Assembly (NCBI RefSeq): GCF_963675165.1
Contig: NC_087392.1
Location: forward strand, 2,185,001 to 2,249,000
DNA length: 64,000 nucleotides
Direction of reading: 5' to 3'
Origin: Halichondria panicea
Taxonomy: Eukaryota; Porifera; Demospongiae; Suberitida; Halichondriidae
In this document: one piece after another, positions 3,269-61,200 of the stretch
How positions within the stretch are numbered: the first letter of the stretch is position 1
Layout of the letters: each line of letters starts with the position of its first letter
Notes under the pieces: model-generated
Told to the model about the DNA's origin: nothing
Database searches by the model: none
The model's input: the letters and a program-made list of their open reading frames with translations, nothing else
Program-made: the position numbers and the translations under genes

Positions 3269-3321
3269 CAATATCAAAATCATCAAAATCATCAAAATTA
3301 TTGGAATCAAAGAAGACAAAA

Positions 3322-4428
3322 ATGAAGTTTGCTGTCTCTCTCCTGCTGTCACTCTGTGTAAGTGGGGCTCTGTCCGCTGGTCCCTTCACTGCCACCATCA
3401 CCAACAAGCCAGTCTTCAAGCTGGGAGATGAGGTCATTGTAGAGGTGACCCTCACTAACAACCATCCAGTAGATTACTTCATCCTCAAAAGATTCACACC
3501 ACTCGAGGGACTAAGGGCTAACATCTTCACCGTGACAACAAACAAAGGCTCTGTACTACCATACGATGGACTAATGTTCAGAAGGGGACCTACACAGAAA
3601 GATGAATATAATAAAATCCGTGCAAATTCTTCCATCTCATTGACTGCAACTCTATCCAATGCCTACGGCTTCTACGAGGCTGGCACCTATCTTGTCAAGC
3701 TGAGCACAACTCTTACATTTGCTAGCTCTCTGGATGTGGGCCCAGTAACACAGCTGCTTGTATCCAACACCAATCGTCTCATGCTAACTGTCGGTGACAA
3801 GCAGCCACATCTAACAATCGGGGAGACCAATCGTAGGAAAGATGTGAAACAGAAAGTAGTCGATTTTTCAGTATTTAATACAAAGGCAATGAAAAACCCA
3901 AAATTTGGAGGTACTTGGACCGATGTAATGAAGAAAGATGCTACAAACGTGTACACCAAGGCCTTCCAGGTAATGTTGAATGCCACCGATTTGGCAGTGT
4001 TCAATACAAATAGATATACTACTTGGTTTGGTACGATTAATTACTCAGGTTATGTTAAATCTGTGCTTCAAGATTGTACAAACGATATGCAAGTGTACTC
4101 TTTCACTCTTTACAATGGCTTGAGTGTCCAAAGCGCATGTGGTCCTTACGACTATGCATACAGATTTGACGGAACACTCTATATTGTACTTTGTAAGGTC
4201 TACTATACATCAGGTTTTGAGGACAAATATGAGACAATCGTACACGAAATGACACATGCATCAGCCAGGACCGAAGACTATATGAATATGGTAGGACGGG
4301 TTGCAAGAAATTGGCCATCGATAATCCAGCAAAGGCTGTTAACAATGCTGACAACTATGCATACTTTACTGACAATCTGTGAACACAGTGATAATTATAA
4401 AAATCCCTTGATTGTCAATTATAATTAG
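3322..4428 (+). CDS. M35-type (aspzincin) secreted metallopeptidase, copy 1, frameshifted at the active site
   Basis: Intronless frame starting [20 protein letters not shown], a clear signal peptide, followed by a beta-rich N-terminal domain ([22 protein letters not shown] ... KRFTPLEG ... FRRGPTQKDEY) and a catalytic domain. The family (peptidyl-Lys / deuterolysin-like metalloendopeptidases) binds zinc with HEXXH plus the Asp of a TxDxxYG motif. HEMTH and TEDY are present, but two extra bases near 4280 (ACTATATGAA versus ACTATGAA in the 7151 copy) shift the frame right after TEDY. The conserved YG and the last ~35 residues are replaced by an unrelated tail ending at 4428. It is therefore probably inactive or a young pseudogene. 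It is flanked by duplicated PITRM1 exons on the other strand. Confidence 0.85.
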   Translation: MKFAVSLLLSLCVSGALSAGPFTATITNKPVFKLGDEVIVEVTLTNNHPVDYFILKRFTPLEGLRANIFTVTTNKGSVLPYDGLMFRRGPTQKDEYNKIRANSSISLTATLSNAYGFYEAGTYLVKLSTTLTFASSLDVGPVTQLLVSNTNRLMLTVGDKQPHLTIGETNRRKDVKQKVVDFSVFNTKAMKNPKFGGTWTDVMKKDATNVYTKAFQVMLNATDLAVFNTNRYTTWFGTINYSGYVKSVLQDCTNDMQVYSFTLYNGLSVQSACGPYDYAYRFDGTLYIVLCKVYYTSGFEDKYETIVHEMTHASARTEDYMNMVGRVARNWPSIIQQRLLTMLTTMHTLLTICEHSDNYKNPLIVNYN

Positions 4429-4522
4429 TAGATGTAGTGTGGGAGTCTACACGAACTGAATTTAGCTATTAACTATATATAGAGTGTATGCTGGGGTGTG
4501 CAGTGTATTAATATACACTTAC

Positions 4523-4619
4523 AAACACTCCTTTCATTTCGTTGAAAATCACACCCTTGAAGATGATAGGTGTGGTTGGGTCTTGCGGGTTCTCATGCTC
4601 CAGTCTCCATCCCTCCTGC
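4523..4619 (-). pseudogene. PITRM1 exon 5 duplicate
   Basis: Copy of 18448-18544: encodes the [17 protein letters not shown]...FNEMKGVF segment and keeps the GTAAG donor and AG acceptor. It sits upstream of M35 copy 1 exactly as in the live gene, so it marks one unit of the tandem duplication. Confidence 0.85.
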
Positions 4620-4723
4620 CTGAGCAGTGGGAGGGGGACAATAACATGGTCAACTGGAAATAAGGCACTTATGTACAGTATTCATGTAACATTAGGATTA
4701 TTACGATTGGCATAGTGTTTGAT

Positions 4724-5287
4724 GGATCGGTGCACCAGCGCAAGCGAGGTATACGGTAGTGTATTTGTCTGTGTGTCAGTGTCTGCCTGTGTAGACTGCT
4801 ACAGCTGCTCAAGGATCAATGAAGTGCAAGAAAGAGTTTCTATAGGCTTCTAGTAATGTTTTTTTTGGATCTTAATTCGTGGATTTTCAAAATAATGCTT
4901 CGTTCCCGAGTTATGTCTAGTTTTACTTACTTGGAATGCCATTGCAGCCTTCAGAAGAGTGCGTAGCAAATGTTGTCCATGGAGTGTTGCTATTCTACAT
5001 AGTAGTTACCTCTGCACTAGAACGCTAGCTACATGGTAGCTGCAAAAGTGAGAAAAGAGCTGCAAGGCTCTACTGGTGCAGCCATTAGTCTTAGACTTTG
5101 TATATACTTGTACTTTTGGCATCCTTTTTACTAATAATCATTATTGATCATATCCCGCTCTGTGACTTTCCCTGCATGCAGCAAAATTAATACATATGAT
5201 ATCATGCATGTGTGTTAATAGCTAGTATACTTTATGTTATGTAACTTTGACATCCACCGAGGCATCAGCACCCGCGGTGCTTTCATT
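4724..5287 (+). repeat. Dispersed ~560 bp repeat (CCTCGGTG family), copy A
   Basis: Starts ATCGGTGC...GCAAGCGAGGTATACGG, runs through TAGACTGCTACAGCTGCTCA, TATAGGCTTCTAGTAA, TTCGTTCCCGAGTTATG and CCATTGCAGCC, and ends CACCGAGGCATCAGCACCCG plus GGTGCTTTCATTT. The first bases (CCTCGGTG in other copies) and the last (CACCGAGG) are inverted with respect to each other, so it has short imperfect terminal inverted repeats. No coding capacity. It is shared with the copies at 9364 and 18649 because it lies in the duplicated PITRM1 intron. Confidence 0.85.
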
Positions 5288-6648: not shown

Positions 6649-7098
6649 GGAGTCTAGCGTAGATAAAAGCAATATTAAAAATCATCGAATCAAAGAAGAT
6701 AAACGAAGTTTGCTAGCTGTCTCTCTCCTGCTGTCACTCTGTGTGAGTGGCCCTGTCCGCTGGTTCCTTCACTGCCACCATCACCAACAGGCCAGTCTTC
6801 AAGCTGGGAGAGGAAGTCATCGTAGAGGTGACCCTCACTAACAACAGTACTACTGTTTCTTCAGAAACCATAATTAAGTTTACGGAGCATTTCTGTAGTA
6901 TTTACACTAGTGAACAAACCACAAACATGATTGTTACAAAAAAAGAAATGCCGTGTAGCGCGAAATTTTTGCTGTTTTCGTGGGTTAGCAATCCTACACG
7001 AAGAATTATCAACTATAACGTGCGAAAATTAAAGGCCGGTGTATATAAATGGAGCTATATGACACATAACCACTAGTACATAATTTGAAGCCAAATTT
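6649..7098 (+). pseudogene. Truncated M35 relic 3, start codon lost
   Basis: Third tandem unit, about 450 bp, carrying the same ATG-to-ACG change and GCTA insertion as relic 2, so relics 2 and 3 share an ancestor after that mutation. The 3' half (TVSSETIIKF..., WSYMTHNH) is the same foreign sequence. The unit ends where the intact M35 gene at 7151 begins, again with GGAGTCTGG plus GATAAAAGCAATATT. Confidence 0.8.
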
Positions 7099-7150
7099 GG
7101 AGTCTGGTGTAGATAAAAGCAATATTACGAATCATTTGAATCAAAGACAA

Positions 7151-8209
7151 ATGAAGTTTGCTGTCTCTCTCCTGCTGTCCCTCTGTGTGAGTGGGGCCCT
7201 GTCCGCTGGTCCCTTCACTGCCACTATCACCAACAAGCCAGTCTTCAAGCTGGGAGAGGAAGTCATCGTAGAGGTGACCCTCACCAACAACCATCCAGTA
7301 GACTACTTTATCCTCAAAAGATTCACACCACTCGAGGGACTCAGGGCTAACATCTTCACCGTGACAACAAACAAAGGCTCTGTACTACCATACGATGGAC
7401 TAATGTTCAGAAGGGGACCTACACAGAAAGATGAATATATTAAAATCCGTGCAAATTCTTTCATCTCATCAACTGCAACTCTATCCATTGCCTACGGTTT
7501 CTATGAGGCTGGAACCTATCTTGTCAAGCTGAGCACAACTCTTACATTTGCTAGCTCTCTGGATGTGGGCCCAGTAACACAGCTGCTTGCATCCAACACC
7601 AATCGTCTCATGCTAACTGTCGGTGACAAGCAGCCATATCTAACAATCGGGGAGACCCATCGTAGGAAAGATGTGCAACAGAAAATAGTCGATGATTCAG
7701 TATTTAATACAAAGGAAATGAAAAACCCAAAATTTGGGGGTACTTGGACCGATGTAATGAAGAAAGATGCTACAAACGTGTACACCAAGGCCTTCCAGGT
7801 AATGCTGAAAGCCACCGATTTGGCAGTGTTCAATACAAATAGATATACTACTTGGTTCGGTAAGATTAATTACTCGGGTGATGTTAAATCTGTGCTTCAG
7901 GATTGTACAAACGATATGCAAGTGCAGTCTTTCACTCTTTACAATGGCTTGAGTGTCCGAAGCGCATGTGGTCGTTACGACTATGCATACACATATCATG
8001 GAGCAATCCGCATTGTACTTTGTAGCGTCTACTATACATCAGATTTTCAGGACAAATATGAGACAATCGTACACGAAATTACACATGCATCAGCCAGGAC
8101 AGAAGACTATGAATATGGTAGGACGAATTGCAAGTATTTGGCCATCGATGATCCAGCAAGAGCTGTTAACAATGCTGATAACTATGGATACTTTACTGGC
8201 AATCTGTGA
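7151..8209 (+). CDS. M35-type (aspzincin) secreted metallopeptidase, intact copy
   Basis: Single-exon, 352 residues. Signal peptide at residues 1-22 (hydrophobic [14 protein letters not shown]); N-terminal beta-sandwich-like domain about 23-160 with [19 protein letters not shown] and EAGTYLVKL; catalytic domain about 175-352 with HEITH at 308-312 and TEDYEYG at 317-323, giving His308, His312 and Asp319 as zinc ligands and Glu309 as catalytic base. This HEXXH + TxDxxYG layout is the aspzincin (M35, peptidyl-Lys metallopeptidase) signature. The family is best known from fungi and bacteria such as Aeromonas, so an intronless copy in an intron-rich animal genome suggests past horizontal transfer (inference). 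It probably acts outside the cell; substrate preference is unproven. I chose the ATG that opens the signal peptide. Confidence 0.9.
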   Translation: MKFAVSLLLSLCVSGALSAGPFTATITNKPVFKLGEEVIVEVTLTNNHPVDYFILKRFTPLEGLRANIFTVTTNKGSVLPYDGLMFRRGPTQKDEYIKIRANSFISSTATLSIAYGFYEAGTYLVKLSTTLTFASSLDVGPVTQLLASNTNRLMLTVGDKQPYLTIGETHRRKDVQQKIVDDSVFNTKEMKNPKFGGTWTDVMKKDATNVYTKAFQVMLKATDLAVFNTNRYTTWFGKINYSGDVKSVLQDCTNDMQVQSFTLYNGLSVRSACGRYDYAYTYHGAIRIVLCSVYYTSDFQDKYETIVHEITHASARTEDYEYGRTNCKYLAIDDPARAVNNADNYGYFTGNL

Positions 8210-15200: not shown

Positions 15201-18200
15201 GTGACATCACAGACTGTAGCAACAACACATACTCCATGAGAATATACATATGCACACCTCAGTCCTGGCCCTCCACCCACATCCACACACACACACACAC
15301 ACTCACAGTGATGAGTCCAAGACCAAAGCTACTGCTCTGGTGTTTGACACTCAGCTCTACCTGATGTAGCACTGACCTCACTCTGTCCTCATGGAAACCC
15401 TCTCTGTACAAACCAAGGTAACAGAGTCCACCATTATTAGTGGGTGTGCTTACGTGGCTACTGTCTCGAGGGTCTTCATCACAATTTCCTCCACTCGATC
15501 AGCGTCCTCTCTCCGTATCCCTTGGAGACCAACAGAGAACACAGTGTCCAGAGTACTGTTGTCATAGCTGTACAGTATTAATATTGATAAGAATCAACCA
15601 TACATGTACATGCTACAAATTGGTATTTTCAATCTTTCTAATCTCAATTCAACACACAAATAAAGATGGTTATTTTTGTCTAGAGATTTACCTAGACCCT
15701 TGAGGCTTCCTATATAATTACGCCTAATTAGAAGCCATTCCTTAGTCTCGCGAGCAGATGTTGGGGGGGGGGAGGGAACGTTTGGTCACTATTGCAGTGA
15801 TTCCGATGAAGTCACGTGCAAGTATTCGTTAATTAACCAAAGTCACATGTAAAAAGTCACATGTAAACAAATTTCATTCGCAGTTAGCTAGCTCTTGCTT
15901 GGGTCTGAGCTCTTTGTAACCAAGTTCCTTCGCAGCCAGGTATGGTGTAACACTAAATTATTTTATAGAGTCAATATTATCCTTTTTTTCACGTTCATTT
16001 TATGCTATAATTGGCAAATTATGGGGTGTTACCGCCCACTAAACACGTAGTCAAATCTGATTACTACCAACATATTCGGCTAGAGTTGCTGCAATAGTGA
16101 CCAGACGGACGGTCCCTCTAGGAAAAGTCGTGCTCATGCGACTAGCCATTCCTATAAGCCCATGCAAGAAGAGCAGTACTAAGACAACCACACACTTACC
16201 CTGTACTTGGGGAGTAGTCAGAGCCGATGTTGGTGTCCAGTAGAGCCTGATAGAAAGGGGAGGTGGGTCCATCCACAAGCAGCTGGCCCAGGATGGACAG
16301 AACTAATGACTCGTAGGGATCTGTGTTCCTATGGTAATACAGTGAGGAGTGTGTGTGTGTGTGTGTGTGTAGGAGGAGGGGGGCTTACGAAGCTTGTAAA
16401 AATGACACTGCTACAGTGGTTTGCTTCTCCGGATCGGTTGCCATGGGATCAGGAGCACAAGATATCTGATTAGTCCTCTGGGAAAGTAATCATTATCTAA
16501 TTTATAATAGGCAGACAGAAAGGGTAAAATGCACACAGAAACACATATTTTACAAGTACATGTACACATCTAAGTCAAATGTAGATAGCGTAAACAGATA
16601 CTTTATCTCACAGGTTGTGTCCATCTCTGCTCGAGGGGCACCTCCACACTCTGTGATCCCAGCTCAAAGCCAGTCAAGGCCTTCTCGTTAATAAACTGGA
16701 GATGATCTCCCAGGGGCATGTCTCCATATGTGAAGAAGCGGGCATTGGTGGGATGGTAGTGAGAGGAGTGGAACTGCCTCAGGGACTCCCACTGCACGCG
16801 TACACTTTGGCCAGAGATTATTATGATTCAGCTAACTCACTGTGAGGTCAAGGATGTCGTTGGGCCAGCCTCCGCTGACGTGGGAGTAGGTGTGGCCTGG
16901 GAGGATCTTGTTCTGAAGGGCTTGCACAAACACACTTTCCGGGGAAGCCTGTAGAGAGAGAGAAAGGGAGGGGGGAGGTAATTGTACCGCTGTGAATAAT
17001 CATTCCAGGCCTACTAGTGTGAGGGAGGACCTGGCAAAAACAATACGCACCAGCACACAAATACGGAAACTAAATACTACCACTTGAGAATTCATGCCGG
17101 GTAGAAACCGAGCTACAATGGCTATTGTACACTCTAACCACCATACTCGGTATCACAACTCTTTTATTGCCTAACACAAAGGGAAAGTTGTGTAGGGGGA
17201 AATATATACTATACCCTGGGATAGGTAGCAACGCGGTGACCCGAGGTAATAGCCACAAGACAGCCTATAAAAGCAGTATCAAAATCATCGAATTATTGGA
17301 AGAAAAGTTTGAATCAAAGAAGACAAATGAAATTTGCTGTTTCTCTCCTGCTGTCACTCTGTGTGAGTGGGGCCCTGTCCGCTGGTCCCTTCACTGCCAC
17401 CATCACCAACAAGCCAGTTTTCAAGCTGGGAGAGAAGGCCATATTGTAGAGGTAACTCTCATTAACAACCATCCAGTAGACTACTTTATCCTCAAAAGAT
17501 TCACACCACTCGAGGGACTAAGGGCTAACATCTTCACCGTGGCAACAAACAAAGGCTCTGTACTATCTCATTGACTGCAACTCTATCCAATGCCTATACG
17601 GCTTCTACGAGGCTGGCACCTATCTTGTCAAGCTGAGCACAACTCTTACATTTGCTAGCTCTCTGGATGTGGCCCCAGTAACACAGCTGCTTGCATCCAA
17701 GACCAATCATCTCATGCTAACTGTCAGTGACAAGCAGCCACATCTAACAATCGGGGAGACCCATCGTAGGAAAGATGTGCAACAGAAAATAGTCGATTTT
17801 TCAGTATTCAATACAAAGGCAATGAAAAACCCAAAATTTGGGGTAATTGGACCGAAAGATGCTACAAACGTGTACACCAAGGCCTTCCAGGTAATGCTGA
17901 AAGCCATCGATTTGGCAGTGTTCAACACAAATAGATATACTACTTGGTTCGGTAAGATTAATTACTCGGGTGATGTTAAATCTGTGCTTCAGGATTGTAC
18001 AAACGATATGCAAGTGTACTCTTTCACTCTTTACAATGGCTTGAGTATCCAAAGCGAATGCGAGCGTAACGACGATGCATACACAACTCATGGAGCAATC
18101 TACATTGTACTTTGTAGCGTCTACTATACATCAGATTTTGAGGACAAATATGAGACAATCGTACACGAAATGACACATGCATCAGCCAGGACCGAAGACT

Positions 18201-20145
18201 ATCAATATGGTAGGATGAATTGCAGGTATTTGGCCATCGATGATCCAGCAAGAGCTGTTAACAATGCTGACAACTATGGATACTTTACTGACAATCTGTG
18301 AACACATGCAGTGAATCAATTATAAAAATCCCTCAATTGTCAATTATAATTAGTAGATGTAGTGTGGGAGTCTACACGAACTGAATTTAGCTATTAATTA
18401 TAGAGTGTGTGCTGGGGTGTGCAGTACGTGTATTAATATATACTTACAAACACTCCTTTCATTTCGTTGAAAACCACACCCTTGAAGATGATAGGTGTGG
18501 TTGGGTCTTGCGGGTTCTCATGCTCCAGTCTCCACCCCTCCTGCCTGAGCAGTGGGAGGGGGACAATAACATGGTCAACTGGAAATAAGGCACTTATGTA
18601 CAGTATTCATGTAACATTAGGATTATTACGATTGGCATAGCGTTTGTATATGCATCGGTGTGCATGCGCAAGCGAGGTATACAGTAATGTGTTGGTCTGT
18701 GTGTGTGTGTCTAGTCTGTGTAGACTGCTACAGCTGCTCAAGGAAGAATGAAGTGCAAGAAAGAGTTTTTATAGGCTTCTAGTAACGTTTTTTCTTCTTA
18801 ATTCGTGGATTTACAAAGTAATGCTTCGTTCTCAAGTTATGCCTAGTTTTGCTTACTTAGAATGCCATTACAGCCTTTTCAAAAGAATGTGTAGCAAATG
18901 TTGTCCATGGAGTGGACAACTACTCTACTAGTAGTTAGCTCTGCACTAATAATAGCAATTGGTAGCTAGCTGCAAGAGAGCTGCAAGGCTCTACTGATGC
19001 AGCCATTAGTCTTAGAAATTGTATATACTTGTACTTTTGACATCCTTTTTACTTGGTTGATCGTATCCCGCTCTTTGAGTTTCCCTGCATGCAGCAAAAT
19101 TAATGCAAATAAAATATGCCATCATGTGTGTTAATAGCTAGTACTTTATGTTATGTAGCTTTGACATCCACCGAGGCATCAGCACCTGCGGTGCTTTCAT
19201 TTTATGCGTTATATTAGTCATAATTAAATGTACAGGCCATAAGAGATATCAGAACATTGTTACTAATTTACTAGCTGCACCTGAAATCATTCTCTCTGAG
19301 TCTGGGGTAGAAGACACAGTCCAGGTACACAGAGAGGAGGTTGTTGAAGTCTTTGCTATTCTGAGAGCTAAACGGGTACATTGTCCAGTCACTGGCTGCC
19401 AAAGAGAGTGAGCAGTGAGAGCGTGTTATAACTATATGGGGGGTGCCTCTCACCAGTGAAGGCATTCATGAAACTGGTCAAAGATCGCGTGAGCATCTTG
19501 AAGAAGGGATCTCGAATCGGGAATTGTCTTGACCCACACAGGGTAGTGTGCTCCAGGATATGAGCCACCCCAGTACTGTCCATGGGCGTGGTCCGGAAAC
19601 CAACACTGTAGTTGACAATAAGCGGTTCACAAAATCTCCACACATATATTATTAGCTTACCCGAAAGTGTTATTGGTGTCTTTCCGTGCAATGTGGAGGT
19701 GTTTGGCTTTGGTTTTGTCATGAGTTAACTGTGCAGCCGTAGCATCAAACTCAGGAAGAGGGGATACACCTTCTACGGTGTAACCATGGAGATGATCCCC
19801 TACCGTCAGTTTTTCTGTGAGGGTTTAATACCTTACGTCATATTACCAACAATATTCCTATTTAGCCATGATTTAGCCAACGTTTCAGTAGTTCGTACCA
19901 ATACTCTCTAAGGGACTGGATCGATTCAAGGTCTTGGCTGACTTGTGAAGCTCCCTAGCACTTGTACCGGATCTTGATAGTCAATATACATAAAATAGAA
20001 GTTAGGGACTTTTCACAACTACCAGCAGTTTTGTGCCTACTGTTATTAGAGCACTGGATACTAAAATGATACCGATCACTTACTTCCACCTGTATCCACT
20101 TTGCAGGGCAGCCAAGGAGCCTTTGTATCCTCTCAACTGCAACAT
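12213..20145 (-). CDS. PITRM1: Presequence protease, mitochondrial (PITRM1/PreP), ~25 exons
   Basis: M16C zinc metalloprotease that degrades cleaved targeting peptides in the mitochondrial matrix. Exons in order: 20084-20145 (short N-terminus [17 protein letters not shown], basic, fits a targeting peptide), 19661-19814, ~19452-19608 with the inverted zinc motif HILEH in [17 protein letters not shown], ~19282-19410, 18448-18544 ([17 protein letters not shown]), 16841-16948, 16612-16791 ([14 protein letters not shown]), 16389-16477, ~16200-16328, ~15452-15566, ~15310-15410, ~15138-15222, ~14980-15072, ~14759-14933, ~14370-14550 ([17 protein letters not shown]), ~13948-14153, ~13650-13815, ~13365-13468, ~13195-13303, ~13030-13142, ~12916-12969, ~12795-12862 ([11 protein letters not shown]), ~12567-12678, ~12362-12497, 12213-12311 with TAG stop. 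Order and content follow human PITRM1 throughout. The first-to-second exon phase does not join cleanly as I read it, so a small extra exon or another start is possible. A relic M35 gene lies antisense in the 16948-18448 intron. Confidence 0.92.
16345..16370 (+). repeat. (TG)n microsatellite in PITRM1 intron
   Basis: Uninterrupted GTGTGT run of about 20 bases next to exon 8. Confidence 0.9.
17327..18301 (+). pseudogene. M35-type metallopeptidase copy 4, nested antisense in a PITRM1 intron, broken N-domain
   Basis: Starts with the same ATG and signal peptide, but the reading frame is broken near 17440 (GGGAGAGAAGGCCATATTGTAG, a small insertion relative to GGGAGAGGAAGTCATCGTAG). A further deletion of about 75 bp near 17565 removes the FRRGPTQKDEY region and another of 12 bp removes WTDV near 17845. 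From 17669 onward the catalytic half is open and complete, with HEMTH followed by TEDYQYG and the normal C-terminus ending DNL and TGA at 18301. So the active-site part is still intact while secretion and N-domain are lost. It lies wholly inside the PITRM1 intron between exons 5 and 6, on the opposite strand. Confidence 0.85.
18649..19205 (+). repeat. Dispersed ~560 bp repeat (CCTCGGTG family), copy C in PITRM1 intron
   Basis: Same family as copies A and B; starts GCATCGGTGTGCATGCGCAA, ends CACCGAGGCATCAGCACCTG plus CGGTGCTTTCATTT. Lies in the intron between PITRM1 exons 4 and 5; being at the same place in all three units, it predates the duplication. Confidence 0.85.
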
Positions 20146-51294: not shown

Positions 51295-51640
51295 TCCCTG
51301 TATAGCAGAATATGACCAATCACTAACTAGAAAGCATCTGGCTAATTGTCTGAGTAATTGCTGTTTCACAACTGCAATGGCCAAGCAGAGCACGCCACAG
51401 TCCGACGAATTGCGCTATTTGTCTACATCTACCATTTTTATGGTCAATGTTGAAGACTGGCAAAATGCTAGCCTTGCAATTGTGTCCACTGTAGAGGAGG
51501 GTAGACTTTGATACATGGTGTCATACACGAATACGACATTACTCTGGCACCCTAGGTTTGACACCAGCACCCAAAAGTGAAATAGACTTAACTTACCACT
51601 TTCTCTCCAATTTCTAATTGTAGAAATACCGGTAGCTATA
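51295..51640 (-). pseudogene. Ulp1-like cysteine protease fragment with micro-inversion
   Basis: The minus strand reads FWVLVSNLGCQSNVVFVYDT, MYQSLPSSTVD, then in the next frame NSSDCGVLCLAIAV, which is the His/Asp...DCG core of Ulp1/SENP-type (C48) proteases of transposon-associated proteins. The C-terminal motif that should follow, PCIAEYDQSLTRKHLANCLS, is instead found on the plus strand at about 51298-51358, directly adjoining. So one short segment appears inverted. A frameshift and the inversion make it a relic. Confidence 0.55.
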
Positions 51641-51660
51641 TATATAAGCACATCATTTTA

Positions 51661-51900
51661 CGTTTACATCTATGGAACGCCAAATAGGTCAAAAATACAT
51701 CCCACTTCAAGGGGGTGTCTCACACATCTATCGGTTACTTTGCACACATCGATCTTTACCCACTTGTACACTTTTGACATCTATCGACTACTTGACATCT
51801 ATCGACTACTTGACATCTATCGACTACTTGACATTTATCGACTTGACATCTACTGCTACGTATACTTACATCTATCAACTACTTGACATCTATGCAATAT
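51661..51900 (+). repeat. Left inverted arm with subterminal tandem repeats
   Basis: About 115 bp unique arm followed by at least five imperfect copies of ACTTGACATCTATCGACT at 51775-51895 and the variant CTGCTACGTATACTTACATC. Repeated subterminal motifs are typical transposase binding arrays. Confidence 0.85.
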
Positions 51901-52094
51901 GATACTACTTGACACTAGTTGGAATCCGCCCAACTATACTTGACACTATCCATGTACATGATCTAGTTGGGCGTGGCCCCACCCATTGTAGCCCCACCCC
52001 ACAGGGCATGGTCCAATTTTAGGTCAGAGTACATGTACCTACATACCTGTGAGAAGTATAGTATAGTGCAGTGTAGTAGTAATCTAGTCTAGTC

Positions 52095-53665
52095 ATGGCT
52101 CTTCATGTTAGCTCTGATGAAATGATCGAGTTTCTAACAATATTGGAAGATGGTATAAGGACTATTCAAGTGGAAGATGAACAAGGAACTTCCAATGTGC
52201 ACAGTCTACTTCATCAGTGTGAAGACATTCTCGAAGTTGTTGTTTATGCCTCTGACTTGTTTCCAGCTGGGTGTGGAGATGCCATTGTTGATGCAGTAAC
52301 AGAAGTGTATAAGTATATTGAAGTAAATTGCCTAAGAGATAGTCACAGAAGAGAGAGACCTTGTGTGAACGTGTCTGAGACTCAGTTGGAGCACCTTTTT
52401 TCGTTTGATTTTAGAGTTAGAGATATTGCACACATGCTTCATGTATCTGAGAGCACTGTCAAGCGAAGAATAATACAGTTTGGATTTGAAAACAAATTAC
52501 AGCGCACAGACATCTCCGAATCTGACTTGGATATTATTACTGCTGATTTTGTTCACCACTTTCCAAACAGTGGACAAAATACTTATGATGGTTATCTAAG
52601 AGGGAAAGGGATAAGAATACAACGATATCGAGTAAGAGAGAGCCTTTCTCGTATTGATGAAACAGGAGTACAAAAACGTCTGAGACGAGCCTTACACCAC
52701 AGGAGATATAGTGTACCTATGCCTAATAGCTTGTGGCACATAGATGGGCACCACAAATTAATACGCTGGAGAATAGTAGTGCATGGAGGCATTGATGGTT
52801 TTTCTCGATTACCAATCTATTTAAAAGCGTCTACTAACAACAAATCTGAGACTGTACTACAGTGTTTTTTGCACGCTGTTTCTTGTTATGGTTTACCTTC
52901 ACGTGTGCGGTGTGATAAAGGAGGCGAAAACGTTAAAGTCTCAGAATACATGCTTTCAAATCCTGAACGAGGTCCTGGTAGAGGTAGCTGTATTGTAGGG
53001 AAAAGTGTCCACAACCAACGGATCGAAAGTTTGTGGAGAGACGTATTTGTTGGTTGTCTGTGTATGTTTTACCGGTTGTTCTATGCTCTCGAAGACAACA
53101 GTTTATTAGATCCTACAGATGAAGTGGATATATTTGCATTACACTTCGTGTTTCTTCCACGTATTCAACAACAACTAAATGTTTTCCGCGAGAGCTATAG
53201 CCATCACAGATTGCGAACTGAAGGCAATAGGACGCCATACCAGCTTTGGATAGAGGGAATGACCTCACTAACAACAGATGGAGCAGCATTACAAGGAGTA
53301 TTGGATGATTCATCAATTGTAAGTATTAGTGATGTGTTTACCTTCATTAGTTTACGAAGTCTGTGCATGTAGTACGTACAAAATGTATTTGAAACTGGTG
53401 GGTCAGAGTATAAGCATTGTGTTTAATTATTTCCTAACTATTATTACAGGGAGATTATGGAATAGATTGGAACGGCCTCTCTTGTATCGAGTCCCAAGAT
53501 GGGGTTGCAGTCCCAAGCACTAATTTCCCACTGTCTGATGCACAGTTTAGTATGCTTAAAGAAGAGGTGAACCCACTTGCTGTTTGTGATGACTATGGCA
53601 TATCGTTGTTTGGTCGCACCAAAGACTTAGTAGCTAGATGTCTGTCTATTTAGAATGATGTAACA
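52095..53665 (+). CDS. Integrase-fold DDE transposase-like protein (element-encoded)
   Basis: Two exons, 52095-53318 and 53450-53665, split by a GTAAGT...TTACAG intron in phase 0; 479 residues. Residues about 94-132 form a helix-turn-helix ([20 protein letters not shown]). Residues about 205-400 form an integrase core: WHIDGHHKL with Asp217, [21 protein letters not shown] with Asp274, and [13 protein letters not shown] with Glu311, a D,D(36)E triad close to the D,D(35)E of retroviral and IS3 integrases. [11 protein letters not shown] lies near residue 385. All key residues are present and there is no frameshift, so it may be active. The protein would cut and join the inverted ends that surround it. 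ATG at 52095 follows a TATAGT-rich leader; no better upstream start. Confidence 0.85.
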
Positions 53666-53828
53666 TAATGATATTGAAAGATCATGATAAAGTATGAAAG
53701 TGATACAGGGTGAATAGAACACAAAAAGAGTATATGTTCGAAAGAATCATGATAAAGTATGAAAGTGATACAGGGTTAATAGGTTTTGTCAAACACAAAA
53801 AGAGTATATGTTCATTTTATTGCAGTGC

Positions 53829-56347
53829 TTATAGGCAACCAAATCCTCCATGGTTTTTCATACCATATGCCATTTTCTTTTTAAACTCCTCTGGATTGTT
53901 ATAATACTTGGAGGGCAGGGTTAGCTCCAACGCACAAGTGGACGACGTGGGAAACACATTGGTATCGTTAAATCTCAGACCCAAAGAGTTATCAAATCCC
54001 ATCGGTGGAACAGACTCTGAACCAGTAGTAAAAGAAAGAATGGTCTTAAGACTGACAGAATCCTCCGAGTCACCTACAGTATTAGCCTAATGAAATTATA
54101 GTTCATAGATCTACCTTCAACACATTCACAATCGTACAGAAAATCTACATGTAAGTAGCCTCTTCTTTAGCAAGATCATTTGAGCCCTTAGGTGAAAAGT
54201 GGGTGATTTTGAACATGGCCTTCATGGTCTCTGCAATAATTACAACAAAACTAATTATGGTTACCAGTTACACACGACACTTACCAGCAGTCAGAACTTG
54301 TGTGTTATTGTGCACAAATAGAGGCCTCATTAGTTCAGGGTACTTCACAAGTGCTTCTCCCACACCGTTCACTTGCAATCCCTCCTTGAGCTGGTTAATC
54401 TCTGCTAAAGACTCGAGAAGAGTGTAGTAGAGTTTTAATGTCTTCACTATCTCAACTTTGTCTGCTTGCGTCGAGGTAACAAGTGGCTTGCTGTACCCGG
54501 CATTCACAATGGTACAGTGTTGAATTATACACATAATTATATAGATAATATTATATACCTTCTGAATAAGGATCCGGACGTTAGTATTTGGTACTTCTTC
54601 ATCAGGTATGTCAATATCACAGATTTTAACACCACACAAGTATGCGTAGAGACTACTTCCAAAAAAGGAGAAACCACTACCACCCTGAGTGATTCCCATG
54701 GTCATCAATTTTCCTACGAGAAGAAACGTCTCACCCTGTATAAAAAAGTGTATGTCAGCGACTACGCATACACACTTTTACATCAAAATACCTGCAAAGC
54801 CAATAAATCATGCCGCACAACCTTACTGTTCTCATGGCCCTCAAACATGGACTGAGCTATCTCTTTCCAACAGGCACCAAAACTCCCTGGATGGGCCTCC
54901 ACCATCTTCTGCTTCCTCACTTACAAAGTGAACCTTAATTAGAACATAATGTAGAGTGTTTATACACCATTAATCCTTATTCTAACCGTCAATGTCTTGA
55001 TGCTTGTAAATGCAGGCCGCCTTGCAGCTCTGAGTGCATCTACTAACACATGAGTGCGTCGTATTGGGATCTGATGATATTCCTTGAACCGATACTCAGA
55101 CAGAAGCTTCAGCAAGCAAGAAAGAGCTGACCATCACACTGCACACAGTACAGGTATAAAAAGTGTTATAGTGAAATTTAAAGCTTACGATTTATGTTGA
55201 GTATCAGGTTGCTTGCTCTCTGTCAAAGCCTGTTTAAGTAAGGCATCCTCGATCTCCTATAACATTAAATCAATATTGTAACACTAACTTCACTAAAAGG
55301 ATACTAACCTCCCTAGAATCGGAATCTGAGTCAATCAAAATGGAGTCCTTTGTTGGTTTGACATCTTCATCAGATGAGAAGCTGCTAGAAAACCTAAAAA
55401 TGATGCTAGTGAAATGAAAAGTGTTGAACTGACCTTTTATAGCGGCATCTTTCAACATGATTTCTCAGCTTGCTCACTTTCATTGCTTCACAGCAAAACA
55501 TGCACTTCTCCTCAATCTGTCCATTAAACATCAAAAACAATAATAATTTTGCACTTAACACTTTCCTACCTCATCTGCCTCCCACTGCAGGTCTTCGACA
55601 GTTGTCAGATCCAAATTCTTCTGTATCGGCCGGAGGTAGAGCCTTCCACTCCCAATAACGGTTTTCAGCGTTTTAACAGATTGTGTTAGTTTCCCTTCTA
55701 CAAGTGCTAGGTCTTTTGAGTTGGGTAAACACCTGAGCATTTCAAAACCACCGCAATCACTTAGCTTGGGAAAGGTTCGAACAATAATACTCCGAAATTC
55801 TTCCATGGAACATGTGTTGATGTTAGAAACTGTTACAGAATTTTCTCCAAGTCCAGCTCCTACCAACAAAATCTTTGAAGAAGCAGTGGCAGGCGCTTTC
55901 CACTGGCAAGTATCACTTAGACAAAAGAGTTTTAAAGTCCATGGCTGAGTGCGTCCTTTTTTTACTTTGGAAGTAGATAGAGAAGTAGATGGTCTAGAGT
56001 ACGGAGAAAAAATTTTTCTTTGCTCGAGCCTTGCTTCACTACTGAAACTTTGTCTCACAGATCTCAGCGTATCGATAGCACGACCACAAGCAGATGAGCT
56101 TGAGCCTACATCACCCACACCCACACCTGCAATGTACACAAATCAATTATCAGGAGGTGGGCGGGAAACTAATTTGTAAGTTGGAGTGGCCTAAACGAAG
56201 TACAGCTTGCTTACCTACACCTGATGAGTGTCTTGCAGGTTGTTGACTACGAGCATCTCTCTGTTGGCTAGGAGCTTGATTAGCAAGGATGGTGTTCAAA
56301 ATAGTTATTCCTTCCTCCAGTTTCTTGACTTGCTCTTCAATCGACAT
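53829..56347 (-). CDS. HECT-type E3 ubiquitin ligase-like protein (element-encoded), probably frameshifted
   Basis: Multi-exon: 56215-56347 (MSIEEQVKKLEEGITILNT, coiled coil), 55570-56126, 55434-55516 with a C2HC finger (CMFCCEAMKVSKLRNHVERC), 55309-55393 (acidic Ser-rich), 55189-55256, ~55000-55130, ~54790-54945, ~54570-54735, ~54290-54500, ~54107-54236, 53829-54086. HECT signatures in order: FVSEEAEDGGGPSREFW (start of N-lobe), TQGGSGFSFFGSSLYAYLCG, DIDIPDEEVPN, AGYSKPL, YYTLLESLAEINQLKEGL, KYPELMRPLFV, then the C-lobe TTGSESVPPMGFDNSLGLRF and FPTSSTCALELTLP, with the likely catalytic Cys codon at 53934-53936, and a C-terminus KMAYGMKNHGGFG. It resembles the G2E3-like HECT proteins of invertebrates. 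Two places fail: the exon 5/6 phase does not join, and an in-frame TAG follows EEATYM near 54146, where a one-base shift restores a family-like sequence. So this copy may be inactive. Confidence 0.75.
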
Positions 56348-56494
56348 TTTGTCTTTTATTCCACGTGGGGCCAAGCAAGCGTATCACGTGACTTAAGGGG
56401 GTTCACCTGAAGTTAGGCCACACCCAACTAAGGACACTATCTCAAATATGTACTCTTGATCTTGCTCGTATATAAATGCACCTAGACCTAGACG

Positions 56495-56850
56495 CGATGT
56501 AGGTGGTGAGTGGTGGACGTGTGATGGTAGATATCAAGTAGTGGATAGATGTCACCTAGCTGGTAGATGTAAGTATACGTAGCAGAAGATGTCAAGTAGT
56601 CGATAGATGTCAAGTAGCTGATGATGTCAAGTAGTTGATGGATGTCAACTAGCTGATAGATGTAAGTATACGTAGCAGTAGATGTCAAGTAGTCGATAGA
56701 TGTCAAGTAGTCGATAAATGTCAAGTAGTCAATAGATGTCAAAAGTGTACAAGTGGGTAAAGATCGATGTGTGCAAAGCAACCAATAGATGTGTGAGACA
56801 CCCCCTTGAAGTGGGATGTATTTTTGACCTATTTGGCGTTCCATATACAT
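56495..56850 (-). repeat. Right inverted arm with subterminal tandem repeats
   Basis: Reverse complement of the left arm, longer, with about ten imperfect TAGATGTCAAGTAGTCGA-type units between 56520 and 56740 and two further copies of TAAGTATACGTAGCAG. Confidence 0.85.
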
Positions 56851-56961
56851 CATCTCGATATATGTTGGTAAACTTGTTGTAACGTAGTGTGTGTTGGGCC
56901 ATACTGCCACATTATTGAGAGGTCACTGTTTACTGCTCTGAGTCTGGCAGACATAGCATAG

Positions 56962-58221: not shown

Positions 58222-61200
58222 TCATCCACGAATACCGGGACTTCCAGGTAGTCCAATGGATCCAATGAAGTGGGGTTTGCTAGGACACACTGGGGTGGAG
58301 TCACATGAGCTCCAGATCTTGCGACGACTGAAACTGGAGAGGTTCCAACGCTTTGAAAGTTTGCTCCATCGCTTCTTAGAACCCCAGTAAAACTTGGGCT
58401 ACAAGGACAAATAAAGTATAGTGCATGGTTTGTAGAACAAAGAATAATGTTCAGTATATTGCATGGTTTGTATAGCTAACAGAACATTACATACAGTAAA
58501 TTCCAATAGTCACTACATACTGGAAAGATCTTGACTTTTCTTAGCTGGTAGTAAGCATAGATCTCAGCATAGTTGTTGGGCCAGCCGTGGTATATGTTGA
58601 CACAGGCTTTGACCTTCTTGGTGGCATATCGGCAGTAGTGTATGCAAATCTCAGGCTCGAGCTGGTACGTGAAGCTGGCTGCAACCTCCACCCCTCCTCT
58701 CACCGCCAGCTAGAAGGACAAACACACAGTAATGCATTATCACATAATTATGGTACCGTATATCTTCTAATTTATCGGACACTTCTAATTACCCCCGACA
58801 CTCTTTTGGGAAATTTTCCGGACACTCCAGTACTTCAATATTACATTTGTTCTAAATATCCGGACAATACCTTGAAAAGTTGAGTTATACCATTCATAGT
58901 AAGACTTAGAGTGATGCAGTTAGATAGCTTTGAGTAGCTAGTTTTAGATAGCATTGAGTAGCTAGTTTTAGATGATAGCTAGTGCAACTATTCAGTCATA
59001 CCCTGTTCTATTAAACTTAGCTAGCTTGCATGCAGCTGCTTGCTTGTTCTAATTATTTCGGACACTTCGCATGCTCTATAAAAATCTGTTCCAATTATAC
59101 CCAGACAATTTCCAAAATAATTATTTTTTGCTGTCTGATAAATTAGAAGATATACGGTATATTAATTGTACACAGCATGGGGAAATGTAATAAATGCACG
59201 GACAACTTGCACACACTCACAATTATTGTGGCACTGGCTCCTCCCTCTGCCCTCAGGGTGAGACTAGGAATGAGACTGGCACATGCCTTCACCGACGTCT
59301 CGCATACCGTCACTTTCACTTTTAGTCCGAGCTTGGCAGTCATGCCAATATAGAAGTCAAGTGTACCAACATAGATGAAAATGCTGTACTTGAATCGGAA
59401 TATCTTGATGGTTGTACTGTACAGATTCTTTGTGAGGGTGTTGCAACCGGAGGGTAGGGTGCCAGCTTCATTAATGAGTGTCTTACCAACAACTTTAGCG
59501 TAGATCTTCTGATAAATGCTGTTCCCTGTTCTTTGACGTAAGAACTCCGCTCTCAAAGCAGTAGCAGTCTTTCCAAAGGCATGTCCCTTAGCAATCACTT
59601 TGGCAAACAATTTATACCCATTTCCATTTGGCTTGATACCAGCAAATCCACCGGCCGCCACTTGTGCATACACTTTACTGAGACCAAACTTTTTCCCCCA
59701 GATGTACGCTTTGTGTTTTGGATGATTTATGACGTCATTTCTCCTTGAGGAATAGCTAGCAACGAGGTTGTAGATAGAGCTAGAAGCATCCCAGTCTGAT
59801 CCTCTACGCACACGAGCGTCATTGACGTCATCTCTTATGTCGTATGTCTCATCTTCATCAACAGGTCTTTCGATATTTTGAAGGACATTATTGTATTCCA
59901 TCGCACGCTTTGTTCCGAGTTTCTGTAGGTAGTCCATCACTAATGAATGCAGTTTAGAGTCCTCGAAGAAGCCAATGGACGCTAGAGCATCGACGTACGT
60001 ATCATGTGAGTCTTTGTCCTTTACTTTATCCAGTCCTTCGATCAACATTTGCACAATCGCTTCAACTTGATCCTGGAAATGAGCTGAGAGGATGACATCT
60101 TTTAATTGTTCCTGTACCCTTTGATCGACTGAGTGGGCCTTGAGAGCGTTTATGGATGCCAGTTGTATATCGAGATCCTTACTCTTCAAATACTTCAACA
60201 CCGTCTGTATCGTCAGTTTACTGTCAGTGTTCCCCAACGCATGTATGTTATGAATGAGGGGGTGTATCTTCTTACTGGAGTCAATGGTAGCCTCCAGACG
60301 TTCCAGTCGATTGCTCAAATCCTTAACTACGGAGGTTTGTATTCCATGCTCTTTATCGCTCGCCAGGGCCCCATAAGCCAGCAATAGAGGATCCACACTG
60401 GTTGGAGAGGAGTCAATCGCATTCCTCACCATCTCAAGAAACTCAGGACGAGGGTTTCGGGTGAAAGCAATGTGCGTGATGATACCATTTTTTTCTTCTT
60501 GGTCGACAGAGTCATGGTATGACTTGAGAAGAGCCTAGAAGGAATAAAACATTGATTATTATAGCCACCTTCCGGTTAAGCACATACTACCACTACTAAT
60601 AAAATATCTAACAAACAGCAGTAGTTAAATCTACATACAAAATTCTAGGATTAAAACGTGCATATAATATGCATTATGCAAAGGGCATTTTGCTTGTATT
60701 CACCATTTGAGAGTCAAGGTGCCCCTCTATAGCAAGAAGTGGGTAAATGTAGCTCCTCATCTTCTTGTCTTCTATCTTGTCTGATCCCAGCAGCTGAGGG
60801 GAAAGTGGATATTAGCATCTTAAGAAGCCAATATCAAATCACTTTAAGCTAGTGTACTGTCTACATTCTGTTTCTGTTTGATTAATCCAATGCAACACAA
60901 GCAATATAGATAACAATATCAACCTTTTCCAAAAAGGTGATAACCTCCCTGATAGCAGGCTTGGCTCCTGGTGGTGGCTGGTACTCCCCCTCCAGTTCAA
61001 CCAGCTGGTGTAGACGATCGGCTGAGCAATGAAGCATTCAATTGTGAACACCCACACATTGATTGATTGAACACCCATGCATAATGAATAGTGTAACACA
61101 TTGTACCCATGCATACACACAATGTACCTAGACTGTTGTGTTCTGAGTCACTGTGCAATGTTTCCAAGGCTTCCCAGACAGATGGAATTTGGCGTCGAAG

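Follow-up and report, generated by a model that had tools for sequence, protein, structure and literature searches.

A DNA transposon of the sponge Halichondria panicea carrying a HECT-type ubiquitin ligase gene opposite its transposase gene

Why would a DNA transposon carry a gene for a ubiquitin ligase? The question is raised by a locus of the demosponge Halichondria panicea, within a stretch of 64,000 nucleotides (contig NC_087392.1, positions 2,185,001 to 2,249,000 of the forward strand; hereafter the window), in which a transposase gene and a HECT-type ligase gene lie convergently between long inverted repeats. Our analyses of the window and of the genome (131 Mb in 39 contigs) lead us to think it fairly probable that the locus is a cut-and-paste transposon resembling IS3EU/GingerRoot, with a HECT E3 ligase gene as its customary second gene, and that the ligase acts in trans, likeliest on a host protein that hinders transposition.

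The transposon occupies window positions 51671-56845 (5,175 bp), with the termini TATGG..CCATA. The original prediction, made from the letters alone, was right that inverted ends enclose two convergent genes, while its bounds (51639..56961) have to be replaced by those given here, which are flanked by TACATC on either side. Its term 'composite' is wrong, because a single end pair and a single 6-bp target duplication enclose both convergent genes. The features are as follows.

51665..51670, plus strand: left target-site duplication, TACATC
51671..51837, plus strand: left terminal inverted repeat, 167 nt, 97% complementary to the right arm
51774..51893, plus strand: left subterminal array of an 18-bp repeat
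52095..53318, plus strand: transposase exon 1, with a helix-turn-helix (HTH)-like stretch, D217, D274 and E311
53450..53653, plus strand: transposase exon 2, including the stop
53829..56347, minus strand: HECT gene; sister copies indicate 11 exons, and the window copy is broken by length changes
56215..56347, minus strand: HECT gene exon 1
55570..56126, minus strand: HECT gene exon 2, N-terminal domain, predicted ubiquitin-like beta-grasp
55434..55516, minus strand: HECT gene exon 3, C-x2-C-x11-H-x3-C finger
55189..55256, minus strand: HECT gene exon 5, helix
53829..55126, minus strand: HECT domain, exons 6-11
56525..56742, minus strand: right subterminal array of the 18-bp repeat
56679..56845, minus strand: right terminal inverted repeat, 167 nt
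56846..56851, plus strand: right target-site duplication, TACATC

The first gene encodes a transposase of 475 residues in a two-exon splice model, and not of 479 as first proposed; its frame is open in the window copy, and the predicted triad D217/D274/E311 is in place. The protein matches the Pfam family PF24764, 'Integrase core domain', with an E-value of 6.6e-83, and weak matches to HTH families precede the core in a Pfam scan at E<=1. None of its seven Pfam matches at that threshold is to an HHCC-finger family. Ginger1 transposases have an HHCC zinc-binding domain ahead of the core, where the sponge transposase shows only HTH-like matches in the Pfam scan at E<=1. A scan with the transposase alignment detected no relatives in viral contigs.

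The second gene lies on the minus strand, where the HECT motifs of the original prediction were recovered in exons: DGGGPSREFW in exon 7 and the catalytic-cysteine motif STCALELTLP in exon 11, together with the C2HC finger. Several of its exons differ in length from those of two sister copies, which upsets the frame, and the window copy of the gene is therefore broken. Thus, the window copy has an open transposase and a broken HECT gene, and the C5 copy an open HECT gene and a broken transposase. In the C5 copy, the 11 exons join with GT-AG borders into a frame of 669 residues. Of two ATGs it takes the second as its start, its first donor site is shifted by a few bases relative to the other copies, and 30 bp are deleted in frame, so that the gene, though open, is built somewhat differently from its sisters. 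Its product matches the Pfam HECT profile with an E-value of 5.8e-14 over positions 13-304 of 306, so that both of the profile matches proposed as a check, to an integrase core and to HECT, were obtained.

By its full-span domain and its catalytic cysteine, the gene is, on sequence grounds, one for a HECT E3 ubiquitin ligase. The catalytic cysteine is kept in all seven families compared, and the T-C active-site motif is present in 10 of the 11 rows of our alignment A6, the eleventh stopping before it. E6AP is the best solved-structure match, with the active-site motifs aligned. An NCBI protein of 374 residues from C7 agrees by eye with exons 6-11, and NCBI labels one element copy 'apoptosis-resistant E3 ubiquitin protein ligase 1-like'. 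A search of the protein database listed 15 HECT homologues, which come without gene context. An AlphaFold model of the HECT part had a mean predicted local distance difference test score of 44.8; a Foldseek search with it returned HECT ligases, by title, in the first 39 rows, and adds little because the best E-value was only 1.0e-3.

Ahead of the HECT domain, the N-terminal domain is predicted to be a ubiquitin-like beta-grasp, the fold of UBL and PB1 domains, its structure model resembling ubiquitin-like domains. The C2HC finger (CMFCCEAMKVSKLRNHVERC) has the spacing C-x2-C-x11-H-x3-C, that of the UBZ4/Rad18-type ubiquitin-binding finger, and this spacing fits in the four families where a finger was seen; none was seen in the frames of contig L064, described below. 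A profile search of the PDB gave no match better than an E-value of 0.029, and a UBZ4 identity of the finger is thus no more than putative. The exon 5 helix may resemble a ubiquitin-interacting motif.

Ten long copies of this family (family 1), the window copy included, are present in the genome, as expected of a mobile unit by the original prediction. Both ends are preserved in nine copies; the target duplication is an exact 6-bp one in six of these, and the remaining three have one of 7 bp, one matching at 5/6 positions and one that is offset. Most of the HECT gene is kept in three copies: the window copy, the C5 copy and C7:5760389, the last with a stop in exon 2 and an altered donor. Element positions 3641-4922 are deleted alike in six of the ten, with loss of HECT exons 1-4, and C12:4328925 carries other deletions. 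An 85%-similar locus, L018, is full of stops and duplications and was excluded from dN/dS. At L016, a nested insertion lies inside the right inverted repeat, starting with TATGGAACGCCG and ending with CCATA; it is perhaps a non-autonomous relative.

The same gene pair is found in a second family of seven loci, two copies of which measured 6,992 and 7,023 bp. Family 2 has the ends TATGGAGCGCC, with TATGG..CCATA termini as in the window family, and exact 6-bp target duplications in all three copies checked. Its mobility was probably recent, because copies L024 and L026 differ by only 5 substitutions in 5,860 bp; in copy L025, a private 14-bp deletion breaks the HECT gene. Moreover, the C3 locus has an uninterrupted open HECT frame of 357 residues (Pfam HECT E-value 2e-6), and convergent HECT sequence is also present in families L043, L048 and L052, the partial frames of L048 and L052 giving Pfam E-values of 9.3e-5 and 7e-4, just below the cut-off. 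When 30 transposase loci from one search were grouped at 85% identity, six of the eight clusters had a convergent HECT and a further one (L049) had HECT on the same strand; none was found in cluster L050.

For a genome-wide count, the best 150 of 156 PF24764 matches were merged into 114 loci, and the HECT matches entered gave 103 loci. Among the matches listed, a HECT lies within 8 kb of 68 of the 114 transposase loci, against about 1.4 expected by chance with 103 HECT loci, and for 65 of the 103 HECT loci there is a transposase locus to which no other HECT lies closer; 60 of the 68 pairs are convergent, six have HECT downstream and two upstream on the same strand, and all 57 cases within 2.5 kb are convergent. 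The 114 loci are copies of fewer families and hence not independent. Of the eight non-convergent cases, C4:2654326, C4:3499349 and C15:5971502 have equal spacing and equal HECT scores, and C7:4194422 has similar spacing; in these four, possibly a layout variant, HECT follows the transposase on the same strand at a distance of about 2.65 kb. Three others are second transposase loci beside a paired element, and C14:4670576 stands alone.

The search from the ligase side agrees. The C5 HECT protein has 117 genome matches, which fall in family 1 (ten copies), family 2 (seven) and 14 other places, 12 of which have PF24764 within 8 kb. The two without it nearby are C4:7783907 and C1:6306 kb; the latter is L018, where family-1-like end sequence is found.

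The pairing also extends beyond Halichondria. Contig L064, filed with an Iophon symbiont, carries the transposase and a convergent open HECT frame of 371 residues, which passes the Pfam HECT cut-off and is 44% identical to the L048 HECT over residues 2-187 of the L064 frame. We infer that L064 is sponge DNA; L063-L065 are contigs of sponge-like DNA in bacterial symbiont assemblies, probably host contamination. The 1,034 bp that follow the L063 transposase show no HECT, and L065 ends shortly past the transposase match. At L068/L069 (G002:C139, a contig filed with a sponge symbiont), a degraded transposase is split by a retroelement-like gag-pol frame. From a different poecilosclerid sample, three loci were either negative or gave no information, and weaker matches lie at G002:C133 and G001:C103. 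Iophon belongs to the order Poecilosclerida and Halichondria to Suberitida. Because the pairing recurs in other families and again, with L064, in a second order of sponges, our data suggest that a protein-tagging enzyme has long been part of such elements.

These results bear on how the two genes came together. The original proposal of the HECT gene as the element's second gene is supported by the shared ends of the copies and by the convergent layout that recurs in other families and in L064. The original prediction had taken copies of the ends lacking the HECT gene as a sign of accidental capture in one copy. Six of the ten copies do lack exons 1-4; however, single-copy capture is ruled out by the recurrence across the genome and in L064. 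Two neighbouring elements, or a host gene lying by chance beside a transposase, would fit the 46 of 114 transposase loci where, among the matches listed, no HECT was detected, as well as the four same-strand loci spaced by about 2.65 kb. We give this explanation next to no credence, as several copies in each of two families hold both genes between a single end pair with a single target duplication, and chance would give about 1.4 paired loci where 68 were counted, with every close case convergent. The version with two adjacent elements is ruled out by the whole-unit target duplications.

We therefore consider what the ligase might do for a transposon of the IS3EU/GingerRoot kind. The transposase would bind the inverted ends and the 18-bp repeats and mobilise the element. 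Encoded on the opposite strand, the HECT protein would act in trans: its ubiquitin-like N-terminal domain and finger may bring it to a target, onto which the HECT cysteine would pass ubiquitin. The purpose would most likely be to remove or alter a host silencing or repair factor and, next most likely, to regulate the element's own transposase. Copies with broken genes may be mobilised in trans. More tentatively, one may picture an ancient lineage of animal DNA transposons in which the ligase is the standing partner of the transposase, belongs to a family found mainly in transposons and built of a ubiquitin-like domain, a finger, a helix of ubiquitin-binding appearance and HECT, and destroys or remodels host proteins at transposition sites, much as viral factors have host restriction proteins degraded; we regard this wider picture as possible, with the odds against it.

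Several observations weigh against a ligase that serves the element. No HECT was found within 8 kb at 46 of the 114 transposase loci, where HECT detection is incomplete and some loci are fragments. Copies with a truncated HECT gene do spread, because six of ten share one deletion. Substitution counts in family 2 do not clearly show constraint on the HECT gene: L026 and L027 differ at 3 of 1,797 HECT coding and 16 of 2,831 non-coding sites (p 0.056), L026 and L028 at 1 of 1,797 and 14 of 2,838 (p 0.014), and L026 and L024 at 3 of 1,266 and 2 of 3,376, in the direction opposite to constraint. The same test on the family-2 transposase gave p values of 0.22 and 0.17. Such counts would suit passive cargo, a ligase gene that an ancestral element once took from its host and has passed on unused ever since, as would the frequency of broken HECT genes (the window copy, the six deletion copies and L025). 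Unused cargo should decay over such divergence, and yet families that share 16-55% identity in their HECT C-lobes have retained the T-C motif, and the 371-residue frame is open in the Iophon-associated contig; we therefore consider passive carriage improbable. A pseudo-ligase kept as a ubiquitin-binding scaffold could explain why these proteins lie far from canonical HECT domains, with Pfam E-values of 5.8e-14 (C5), 2e-6 (C3), and 9.3e-5 and 7e-4 (L048, L052). The presence of the T-C motif in seven of seven families and in 10 of 11 rows of A6 makes this quite improbable.

The target of a working ligase may also lie within the element. The HECT protein could ubiquitinate its own transposase, setting its amount or helping the strand-transfer complex to disassemble, and would then be a self-regulator rather than a means of counter-defence. 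Both genes travel together and co-diverge: over seven families, pairwise identities in the transposase core track those in the HECT C-lobe (matrix correlation r = 0.78; exact Mantel test, 1 of 5,040 permutations), with the position of C3 differing between the two trees. Furthermore, the HECT line stays with PF24764, in 12 of the 14 places outside families 1 and 2, unlike the TET/JBP genes of fungal transposons, which changed superfamily (PMC12730594). However, passive linkage also predicts co-divergence, and we regard self-regulation as rather unlikely. Should the ligase serve the element, this would be a DNA transposon equipped with its own means of altering host proteins, and it could be used as a natural probe to find what holds transposons in check in sponge cells. 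In addition, transposons may inflate the number of HECT ligase genes counted in sponge genomes, because an element gene is annotated as a host ligase (AREL1-like).

As for the surroundings, the right flank of the element (56846-56948) consists of repeated sequence, which is matched at C15 520-531 kb. Open reading frames at 3301-4428, 7085-8209 and 17669-18301 on the plus strand resemble one another and form an apparent local gene array; the one scanned (7085-8206) matches the lysine-specific metallo-endopeptidase family PF14521 with an E-value of 1.8e-24. A 429-residue open reading frame at 59143-60432 on the minus strand has a sole weak HEAT-repeat match, below the cut-off (E-value 0.0023).

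To conclude, the element can be set beside known systems. With the host proteins E6AP/UBE3A and AREL1, the element ligase has the HECT domain and catalytic cysteine in common; it differs in being transposon-encoded and in having its own front part, with the predicted beta-grasp and the C2HC finger. KolobokP elements of animals reportedly combine a DDD/E transposase with a homing endonuclease (PMC9587614), and thus likewise hold two enzymes in one element, but the second enzyme and the superfamily are other ones. In the literature searched, with Repbase Reports and most subscription papers lying outside it, no HECT gene in a transposon appeared by title or start of abstract.

The element probably belongs with IS3EU/GingerRoot, to judge by its ends, target duplications and transposase core. 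This group is described by TA..TA ends, 6-bp target duplications and a DDE transposase without HHCC (PMC10045372, PMC12730594). All of these are found in the sponge element, whose core is integrase-like. In rust fungi, IS3EU families have the ends TAYGG..CCRTA, and the accessory genes named for them include alpha-kinase and TET/JBP, the alpha-kinase being oriented opposite to the transposase (PMC12730594). The fungal elements resemble the sponge element in carrying an extra regulatory enzyme, but the enzyme and the host kingdom differ, a HECT ligase standing in place of alpha-kinase or TET/JBP. The HECT gene is an accessory gene distinct from those named for the rust-fungus elements. According to the same report, TET/JBP genes of fungal transposons moved between superfamilies (PMC12730594), whereas the sponge HECT line, in the genomes searched, appears to have stayed with one transposase family.
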